A DNA stretch of 64,000 bases from Qipengyuania seohaensis (GTDB lineage: Bacteria > Pseudomonadota > Alphaproteobacteria > Sphingomonadales > Sphingomonadaceae). The translations under genes were made by a program, and so were the position numbers. The notes under the pieces were generated by a model that was not told the origin of the DNA, made no database searches, and was given only the letters and a program-made list of their open reading frames with translations. This document shows, piece by piece, positions 42,389 to 44,353 of the stretch. The first letter of the stretch is position 1. Each line of letters begins with the position of its first letter. The stretch lies in NCBI RefSeq assembly GCF_002795865.1, contig NZ_CP024920.1, positions 2,329,001-2,393,000 on the forward strand, written 5' to 3'.

Positions 42389-43195
42389 TTATTTCTTGGT
42401 CGGTTTTGCCGGCGTGCGCAGACGGCCGCGATGGGCGTTCATGTCGAGCACTTCGCCGGGGCCATTGTCTTCATTCTGCAGCAAGCCGAGACGGCGCGCG
42501 ACTTCCTGATAGGCTTCGCTTTCGCCGCCAAGGTCGCGGCGGAACCGGTCCTTGTCGAGCTTTTCGCCGGTGTTGATATCCCACAGGCGGCACCCGTCGG
42601 GGCTGATTTCGTCGGCCAGGATCACACGGGCATAATCGCCGTCCCAGATACGTCCGAATTCCAGCTTGAAGTCGACGAGCCGGATGTCGATCGCGCTGAA
42701 CATGCCCGAAAGGAAGTCGTTGATGCGGATCGCCATGCTGGACATATCCTGCATTTCTTCGTGGTTGCACCAGTTGAAGCAGGCGATTTCTTCTTCGGAA
42801 ACCTTGGGATCGCCAAGGCTGTCGTCCTTGTAGCAATATTCGATCAGCGTGTGCGGCAGGACTTCGCCTTCCTCGATGCCGAGGCGCTTGGACAGCGTAC
42901 CGGCGGCCACGTTGCGCACCACGACTTCGAGAGGAATGATCTCGACCTGGCGCACCAGCTGTTCCCGCATATTCAGGCGGCGAATGAAGTGCGTCGGAAT
43001 ACCGATGTGCGAAAGGCGTGTGAACACATACTCGCTGATGCGGTTGTTTATCACGCCCTTGCCGTTGATCGTACCCTTTTTCTGGGCGTTGAAGGCGGTC
43101 GCGTCATCCTTGAAATACTGGATGATCGTGCCCGGTTCGGGGCCCTCATAGAGGATCTTGGCCTTGCCTTCGTAGATCTGGCGGCGACGTGACAT
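42389..43195 (-). CDS. purC: Phosphoribosylaminoimidazole-succinocarboxamide synthase
   Basis: 268 aa; step 8 of purine synthesis, ligating aspartate to CAIR. It begins [18 protein letters not shown] with the conserved YEGKAK, then [16 protein letters not shown] and [12 protein letters not shown]...DEISPD with catalytic residues. The start at 43195 has GAAGGA about 10 nt upstream. The leader directly upstream contains a terminator-like hairpin with T6 and a competing longer hairpin, suggesting attenuation control (see 43218-43271). The C-terminal extension after about residue 240 is Arg/Lys-rich and variable in the family. Confidence 0.95.
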
Positions 43196-43217
43196 GGGCG
43201 GATTTTCCTTCGCGCTC

Positions 43218-43271
43218 AAAAAACTGCCGCCCCGGCAGTACGATCGGCCTGTGTCCGATCGCCCCGGGGCG
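43218..43271 (-). promoter_or_regulatory. Terminator/anti-terminator-like leader hairpins of purC
   Basis: Read on the minus strand: a 6-bp GC stem with a 3-nt loop (43238-43224) is followed directly by six T (43223-43218), a compact terminator, only 22 nt upstream of the purC ATG. A second, longer two-part stem pairs 43228-43235 with 43264-43271 (8 bp) and 43241-43247 with 43255-43261 (7 bp). It uses bases of the terminator stem, so both cannot form at once. This is the layout of a transcription attenuator. It does not match any purine aptamer consensus I can recognise. Confidence 0.65.
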
Positions 43272-43376
43272 TCGAGCCTGCGCCTTTACAGCGAATGAAA
43301 GGGGGACGCAATCGCGCCCCGCGACCCTTGCAACAATGCTTGCAGCCTGGCTGCGTGAAGGGCAGCAGGAAAGCAC

Positions 43377-44273
43377 ATGTCTGCGCCTTTACACTACTTT
43401 CACTCGGGCCTCTCGATCGCGTCCGACCTGGCGTTGCCTGAATGGCAGGATTTCGCCTGCGGTGAGGGAGGCGACGTCGCGATCGTCGTTTCCGACGCAG
43501 AGGCGCCAGCTTGCAGCGAAGCGGACGGTACGATCGTCGAAGGCGACCTGATCCGATTCGCGATCGATGATGTCGGGGTCTGGGAAATTCAGGGCGGGCA
43601 GACAATCCGCGTCTATCCGCACGCAGGTGCGCAGGATCGTGATCTGCGCCTCTTTACACTAGGCAGCGCGTGGGGCGCCTTGGGATACCAGCGCGGCCTC
43701 GCCATGTGGCATGGCAGCGTGGTCGAACACCATGGCCAAGCGATACTGTTCTGCGGCGATGCGGGCATGGGCAAAAGCACGATGGCGGCTGCAATGCTGG
43801 TGAAGGGGTGGTCGCTCGTATCTGACGACCTCAGTCGCATCGATGCATCCCCTGAAGTTTCGTGCGTTTATCCCGCGAGCACACGGATCAAGCTTTGGCG
43901 CAACGCGATCGAGGCGCTGGGCTGGGAAGATCGCGTAATCCAGCGCGACCATTTCCGCGACGACAAGTTTCATCTCCGCGCGCCTAAGAATAATGCCGGG
44001 GAGGGAATATTGCCGCTAGGGGCGATCTTCGTGCTGGCCGACGGTGAGAAAGTCGAAATCGAGAGGCTGGAGGGGCATCGCGCGGTGACGGCGGTCCTCG
44101 CTGCGACGGTCTATCGACCCGAAATGCTCGAAGCGATGGATGGCTGGGTCAGGCAGGCCCATGTCGCGGCTCAGGTGGTTGCCGGCACGCCGGTTTGCAT
44201 CCTGCGCAGGCCGCGCGATCTCGCAAGCTTGGGCGACGTCGCCCACGCCGTGGAGCATTTCCTGTCTGAATAG
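43377..44273 (+). CDS. HPr kinase-like P-loop ATPase
   Basis: 298 aa. The region WHGSVVEHHGQAILFCGDAGMGKSTMAAAM...LVSDDLS follows the HPr kinase/phosphorylase catalytic layout: the HG..G strand, Walker A GDAGMGKS at 127-134 and an SDD Walker B-like pair near 150. The N-terminal 90 residues (...IWEIQGGQTIRVYPH) are a small beta-rich domain. No HPr or PTS gene is nearby. Such HprK-like proteins occur with peptide/RiPP clusters or as orphans; the substrate is unknown. AGGAAAG precedes the ATG. The gene shares the spacer with the divergent purC leader. Confidence 0.75.
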   Translation: MSAPLHYFHSGLSIASDLALPEWQDFACGEGGDVAIVVSDAEAPACSEADGTIVEGDLIRFAIDDVGVWEIQGGQTIRVYPHAGAQDRDLRLFTLGSAWGALGYQRGLAMWHGSVVEHHGQAILFCGDAGMGKSTMAAAMLVKGWSLVSDDLSRIDASPEVSCVYPASTRIKLWRNAIEALGWEDRVIQRDHFRDDKFHLRAPKNNAGEGILPLGAIFVLADGEKVEIERLEGHRAVTAVLAATVYRPEMLEAMDGWVRQAHVAAQVVAGTPVCILRRPRDLASLGDVAHAVEHFLSE

Positions 44274-44278
44274 GAAGG

Positions 44279-44353
44279 TGGTGCCCAGGGGCGGAGTCGA
44301 ACCACCGACACGACGATTTTCAGTCGTCTGCTCTACCACTGAGCTACCCGGGC
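44279..44353 (-). tRNA. tRNA-Phe (anticodon GAA)
   Basis: The minus strand folds as a 75-nt cloverleaf: acceptor GCCCGGG/CCTGGGC, D-arm GCTC/GAGC, anticodon stem GACGA/TCGTC with loop CTGAAAA (anticodon GAA), T-arm GGTGG TTCGACT CCGCC, discriminator A and an encoded CCA. It lies 92 nt downstream of yacG on the same strand. Confidence 0.96.

Follow-up and report, generated by a model that had tools for sequence, protein, structure and literature searches.

In most of the sampled Sphingomonadaceae (the GTDB-type family, Erythrobacteraceae included) the purC mRNA appears to carry an element at its 5' end, and the existence of this cis-acting element, as well as its action as RNA, is well supported by a comparison of leaders across the family. 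The window (i.e. the whole stretch of 64,000 nucleotides that was analysed, from Qipengyuania seohaensis contig NZ_CP024920.1) holds purC on the minus strand, where it encodes SAICAR synthetase (Pfam PF01259, E 2.4e-82) from an ATG at 43195; the genome of origin is one contig of 2.94 Mb, and its PurC reaches up to 97% identity to those of named Qipengyuania species. Read on the minus strand, the leader consists of promoter, outer helix P1 with inner helix P2, GCAG, T6, a Shine-Dalgarno-like AAGGAA and the ATG, with the following features:

42389..43195, minus strand: purC (Pfam PF01259), the gene behind the element; its leader is the best match in the scan of its own genome.
43306..43311, minus strand: predicted -35 element TTGCGT, from the sequence and the gap pattern in the family.
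43283..43288, minus strand: predicted -10 element TAAAGG, of alphaproteobacterial type, with its last place lacking T.
43274..43279, minus strand: predicted transcription start (about 43276), placed 7 nt past the -10 element by calibration on Z. mobilis.
43264..43271, minus strand: P1 left arm CGCCCCGG, near invariant at 43270-43264 in the 133 thinned leaders.
43255..43261, minus strand: P2 left arm CGATCGG, covarying inner helix in a region that folds better than shuffles.
43241..43247, minus strand: P2 right arm CCGATCG, covarying inner helix on the same basis as the left arm.
43228..43235, minus strand: P1 right arm CCGGGGCG, conserved; some relatives show a G.U or double changes that keep the pair.
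43223..43239, minus strand: terminator-like hairpin ACTGCCGGGGCGGCAGT of the window clade, overlapping the P1 right arm and not conserved family-wide.
43218..43223, minus strand: T6 tract, whose letters 43221-43219 correspond to the conserved T's (+8 to +10 from P1).

An earlier note on this DNA had described a T6 hairpin and a two-part stem on the minus strand; its coordinates are exact, and a structured purC leader in which the two overlap and are mutually exclusive is indeed present in the window. The T6 hairpin (arms ACTGCCG and CGGCAGT around a GGG loop, 43239-43223, T6 at 43223-43218) ends 22 nt before the ATG and has a dG of -9.6, compared with about -30 for the two-part stem P1/P2, which is thus about 20 kcal/mol more stable and is also the first to form. 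Since the P1 right arm is needed by both, the structures exclude each other, and the ensemble probabilities in the window are 0.997 for P1 and 0.0004 for the T6 hairpin. The whole window leader folds slightly better than chance (z -2.0; 6/200 shuffles equal it), and terminator-like patterns between 42300 and 44500 show no excess over shuffles (2 found, 2.3 expected), so that the case rests on comparison. Judged by the aligned relatives, this comparison reverses the first reading, in that the two-part stem, and not the T6 hairpin, is the conserved object.

The purC leaders were taken from whole genomes of the family and from named species, and the removal of exact repeats only left 215 family leaders, from which a set of 159 was obtained by setting aside 27 in which tRNA-Phe lies no more than 100 nt away and 29 that the covariance model had selected. 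With 0 or 1 mismatch, both arms of P1 (GCCCCGG/CCGGGGC) were found in 133 of these 159 leaders versus 124 of 3720 Markov-shuffled ones (derived from 186 leaders, the 29 model-picked ones included), counts that themselves score likeness to GCCCCGG/CCGGGGC. The arms had 0 mismatches in 106 leaders, 1 in 27, 2 in 7 and 3 in 6, and were absent in 13. A thinned set (133 of 163 leaders at 70% identity, from which spans outside 28-60 and leaders with a short upstream stretch were dropped) retains doubtful P1 calls, e.g. leader L236; alignment A1 and model R1 were seeded by leaders with the P1 pattern, and P1 conservation is to be read from the 159-leader counts. Considering that the columns outside P1 and the T-tract mostly carry little information in the 133 thinned leaders, shared ancestry alone does not account for the fixed P1 letters. 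The spans from P1 arm to P1 arm fall mainly around 31, 42 and 54 nt and seldom at 45-51.

Covariation across aligned purC leaders, which the earlier note had proposed as a check, was found in P2. In a 50-leader alignment 38 cells were changed on both sides and remained paired, as opposed to 15.1 in shuffles (0/500 as high), and 34 of them fell in P2, where they cover all 7 pairs; shifting the partner by 1-3 columns lowered the paired cells from 88% to 37-47%. The signal is weaker when counted by pairs (8 with both-side changes versus 6.1 in shuffles, 32/500 of which reach 8), and RNAalifold, applied to the same alignment, returned P1 only and no compensatory pair, because P2 varies in letters and register; the lack of a compensatory pair nonetheless cuts the other way and counts against the RNA-structure evidence. 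Among 98 matched loci (100 given) there were 102 both-side cells versus a maximum of 53 in 300 shuffles, in an alignment that was fitted to the model, and hence leans to it, with the best row per locus kept and opposite-strand rows present. Compared with its own shuffles, the inner region has the more stable fold (mean z -1.97 over 133 leaders, of which 79% have p up to 0.1); the predicted fold includes P1 in 123 of the 133 thinned leaders. Double changes in P1 keep the pairing in L163 and L253 (both C-G to U-A) and lose it in L158 and L236; a further paired one, in L028, is left out of account, as this leader adjoins a tRNA gene. Single changes in P1 are strongly skewed, both in the 133 leaders thinned at 70% (C-to-T 22, G-to-A 4, transversions 6; p 0.0005) and in 80 leaders thinned at 55% (C-to-T 13, G-to-A 3, other 6; p 0.02). 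As C-to-T keeps a G.U pair and G-to-A breaks the pair, such a bias is unexpected for a symmetric DNA operator.

Behind P1 lies the second conserved part of the leader. In the 133 thinned leaders, T occupies +8, +9 and +10 after CCGGGGC in 91%, 96% and 74% of cases, versus 14%, 28%, 37% and 26% at +1 to +4 and 50%, 40% and 60% at +5 to +7. When the leaders are aligned on the ATG, T nowhere rises above 54% (it is about 50% at 22-25 nt upstream), and P1 lies between 21 and 82 nt from the ATG (median 32). The T's are thus fixed to P1 and not to the ATG, which means that the tract belongs to the hairpin and not to the ribosome site. The base behind the T run is C in 69, G in 40 and A in 19 leaders (n=128), i.e. 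there is no excess of the G+1 that belongs to the elemental pause consensus (40/128). Apart from the U's, no conserved unpaired nucleotides were found among the 133 thinned leaders, and the tail showed no covariation with other parts beyond neighbours and weak links; a pseudoknot with the tail was rejected, as the strong covariation signals were those of neighbouring columns.

The promoter had been expected upstream of the leader, and a TTGCGT-17 nt-TAAAGG arrangement is found there, with a position pattern that lies far above shuffles in the family: of the 133 thinned family leaders, 121 have 17 nt as their best -35/-10 gap (159/1330 of shuffled ones), and in 114 the first base of a -10-like hexamer lies 14-18 nt ahead of P1 (169/1330 of shuffled upstream stretches). 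An E. coli-type promoter scan gave no match at the purC leader promoter; the sigma-A promoters of Z. mobilis are described as being without a conserved T-7 (PMC7566282, in extract), and Table 3 of PMC7566282 (in extract) puts the mapped purC start of that species 81 nt upstream of the start codon. In three low-GC Zymomonas-like genomes, a distance of 81 nt falls 7 nt past TATAAA (L262, L264) or 13 nt past it (L260). With this calibration the purC RNA is predicted to start 2-6 nt before the first G of P1, a position that holds in 114 of the 133 thinned leaders, the mapped starts coming only from a non-carrier. A rewritten P1 in the same Zymomonas-like leaders (L260, L262, L264) was rejected, as the 81-nt start leaves its left arm upstream of the transcript.

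Within its own genome the covariance model has one strong match, at purC (E 1e-7), the next being at E 0.0016. Matches at E <=0.01 occur in 165 of 298 family genomes (some with 2 or 3), under strict filters by which some may have been missed, and in 68 of 96 sampled genera, the location at purC being confirmed for part of them only. Among 40 fetched matches (second matches, or ones whose place relative to purC was unknown beforehand) 29 precede purC and 11 do not, 9 of the latter being short GC hairpins. Judged by their appearance, the GCCCCGG hairpins away from purC look like ordinary terminators. Short GCCCCGG-loop-CCGGGGC hairpins followed by T's were seen away from purC in L142, L157, L162 and L164-L168. 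The idea that GCCCCGGC is a general terminator stem was rejected, since 21 genomes hold 0-4 exact 8-letter copies per strand and genome versus 0-5 for the reversed control, and it is not among the top U-tailed stems listed near purC.

Class-wide, 16 of 240 genomes match at E <=0.001, and in the 16 new class loci that were fetched (with up to about 1.5 kb on each side) PurC is encoded only in L325, a family member. A strong match (E 3.7e-7) was also seen in another family (L322, near 1505-1565), placed between a transporter permease-like gene and another gene in a locus without purC. At up to 2 mismatches, both P1 arms were found in none of the 16 purC leaders of outgroup families in the order (L290-L305) and in none of the 27 family leaders in which purC lies directly behind tRNA-Phe. 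The latter arrangement, without the hairpin, is seen in many Erythrobacter-type genomes (e.g. L042, L053, L064, L223, L246), where the gene order reads as if purC were expressed from the tRNA promoter.

The earlier note's remark that it knew of no described purC leader for this group stands, both for Rfam and for the literature searched. Rfam yielded no known family (in the window only the tRNA passes), and its best match to the leader was Xoo2 (E 5.2; 10.7 bits versus 45 required), so that a known riboswitch or cis-regulatory Rfam family was rejected, with no match near threshold. No description of a purC leader in Sphingomonadaceae was found among the best-ranked matches in the open-licence PubMed Central literature; the three purC-like matches in the available extract of PMC8632094 are the word "purchased", and purC is absent from that of PMC2704228. 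We consider the motif a candidate for a new one. That it further represents a new class of cis-regulatory RNA, limited to purC in Sphingomonadaceae, whose GC helix and UUU (8-10 nt behind the helix) are read by a factor or by the polymerase itself, is doubtful, albeit a real possibility. If true, it would add a new RNA leader motif on one enzyme of purine synthesis across a widespread family and would give the Sphingomonadaceae a means to control purine synthesis through RNA, at the step of SAICAR synthetase; the rigid spacing between hairpin and UUU would furthermore provide a specific prediction on RNA polymerase.

We reason, tentatively and with somewhat less than even confidence, that the 5'-terminal hairpin causes a polymerase pause or weak termination, a mechanism that we infer from the geometry of the sequence. 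The 5' end of the transcript would comprise a few free nucleotides, the GC-rich P1, the covarying P2, about 7 nt and UUU; P1 would close on its exit from RNA polymerase, at which time the active site would stand on the UUU, and the outcome would be a hairpin-dependent pause or weak partial termination some 50-60 nt into the transcript. Such a pause or leaky termination could set or modulate the level of purC transcription, and a trans-acting factor that reads P1 could account for its near-fixed letters. A terminating polymerase stands 7-9 nt behind the hairpin (PMC7566282, in extract) and hairpin pausing involves 10-13 nt from hairpin to RNA 3' end (PMC12288461, in extract); the UUU lies 7-10 nt behind P1 and matches these spacings, which favours a pause or termination, while strong termination is unlikely with so few U's at +1 to +4, so that a pause or leaky termination is preferred. 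Against pausing stand the G's that are not enriched behind the T run and the P1 letters, which are needless for pausing as such; left unexplained by it, these invariant letters would be compatible with a factor that recognises the helix. Expression of purC in Z. mobilis is high and steady (4,868 in minimal, 5,365 in rich and 5,980 in aerated rich medium; PMC7566282, in extract). As the Zymomonas-like genomes have a predicted purC transcript without P1, these values neither support nor exclude regulation in the P1 carriers.

Hairpin-stabilised pauses in leaders are typified by that of the E. coli his type. Pauses of this kind (including NusA-stimulated ones in B. subtilis) share with the purC element a leader hairpin and pyrimidines near the RNA 3' end, and the purC U's at +8 to +11 fit their hairpin-to-3'-end distance (10-13 nt; PMC12288461, in extract); the purC motif differs by the absence of an enriched G after the U's and by its fixed P1 letters. 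The NusG-dependent TTNTTT pause of the B. subtilis trp leader similarly combines a leader hairpin with a T-rich non-template strand. There, the T motif occupies -11 to -6, with 11-12 nt between the hairpin and the 3' end (PMC12288461, in extract), so that its T's follow the hairpin at once, whereas the purC T's peak at +8/+9; pausing of the NusG TTNTTT type was rejected, as the T peak lies too far downstream and TTNTTT occurs inside +1 to +14 in 36/128 leaders. Intrinsic terminators and leader attenuators resemble the element in having a GC hairpin followed by U's, with the promoter upstream and the gene downstream; in purC, unlike these, U's are few at +1 to +4 and most frequent at +8/+9, and no competing terminator is conserved. 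A canonical intrinsic terminator was thus rejected, given that the U-tract is not directly behind the stem.

The purC element could alternatively be the site of an RNA-binding regulator (or small ligand) that reads the P1 letters and UUU and controls purC post-transcriptionally. We deem this somewhat unlikely, even though the P1 letters are near invariant where pairing would permit many others, the T's at +8/+9 are conserved almost like P1, and the only strong match of the genome is the one at purC: no candidate protein was found, the U's are the sole conserved unpaired nucleotides in the 133 thinned leaders (which speaks against a ligand pocket), and a P1-to-start-codon distance that varies between 21 and 82 nt makes it unlikely that the element blocks the ribosome site directly. 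In E. coli, mRNA stabiliser hairpins at the 5' terminus are those of the ompA type, and the textbook place of a protective 5' hairpin is a few nucleotides from the RNA 5' end. The predicted start, 2-6 nt before the first G of P1 in 114/133 thinned leaders, would place the purC hairpin similarly, and a stable hairpin a few nt from the predicted 5' end is what it has in common with the ompA type, the fixed letters and fixed U spacing being found only in the purC element. A hairpin that guards against decay, combined with a U-tract that aids ribosome binding, is further favoured by the T's that reach about 50% at 22-25 nt upstream of the ATG; we regard it as unlikely, given that the T-tract is fixed to P1 and not to the ATG and that stabilisation has no need of fixed P1 letters.

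The attenuator that the earlier note had proposed, with the T6 hairpin as terminator, P1/P2 as antiterminator and a purine signal deciding between them, draws on the mutually exclusive structures of the window and on the T6 hairpin being kept in L170 and L172. We hold it to be highly improbable. Of the two stems whose conservation in relatives was in question, the long one is kept (133/159), and the T6 hairpin is no stronger than in shuffles: in the 125 thinned leaders with TTT after P1 (8/133 are without it) hairpins abutting the T-tract have a mean dG of -1.6 versus -1.9 kcal/mol in shuffles, and 11/125 reach -6 or below. The hairpin of the window is the strongest of the 125 (-9.6; L146 and L148 have -9.4). 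Q. nanhaisediminis (L170) and Q. aquimaris (L172) keep it whole, and Q. intermedia (L171) differs at a single stem base, while the remaining 14 of the 17 non-duplicate named leaders (L170-L188) have no abutting hairpin stronger than -5.3. The T6 hairpin was therefore rejected as a conserved attenuator, being kept neither in the family nor in most named leaders, and the terminator/anti-terminator switch falls with it, the more so as P1 is favoured in the window and P1/P2, the more stable structure, is also the earlier one. Neither a leader peptide (among ORFs of 60 aa or more) nor a sensor was seen, and no result ties the element to purines, the trigger that had been suggested. By its sequence distribution, the on/off attenuator seems to be local to a few close relatives; the T6 hairpin may bring about some termination within the small window clade and is not the conserved device. 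More generally, a terminator seen in a single genome can arise locally, as a by-product of a conserved helix that serves another purpose.

The most improbable of the readings is that the arms are the two half-sites of a DNA operator, although inverted GCCCCGGC/GCCGGGGC blocks do lie shortly downstream of the promoter and the arm spans cluster near 31, 42 and 54. The covarying P2, the G.U-type asymmetry of the P1 changes and the presence of T's on one side only all speak against it, and 21 leaders with spans of 34-38 spoil a clean helical phase; helical phasing of the arms as a sign of an operator was rejected on account of these spans.

The surroundings of purC vary. In the window, it is followed on its 3' side by a convergent gene with a diacylglycerol-kinase domain, and elsewhere 3 of 5 tested same-strand downstream genes encode M16 peptidases; the variability of these neighbours indicates that the element is tied to purC rather than to an operon. 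A divergent gene (43377-44273, plus strand), with a weak match to the HPr-kinase C-terminal domain (PF07475, slightly under the cut-off), shares the intergenic region with purC, and it is the one gene that separates the window purC from an upstream tRNA-Phe gene (44282-44353, minus strand). An in-frame TTG at 43219 (minus strand), within the T-tract, would extend PurC by 8 residues if used as start; the ATG at 43195 suits the relatives better, and automatic annotation might pick the TTG.
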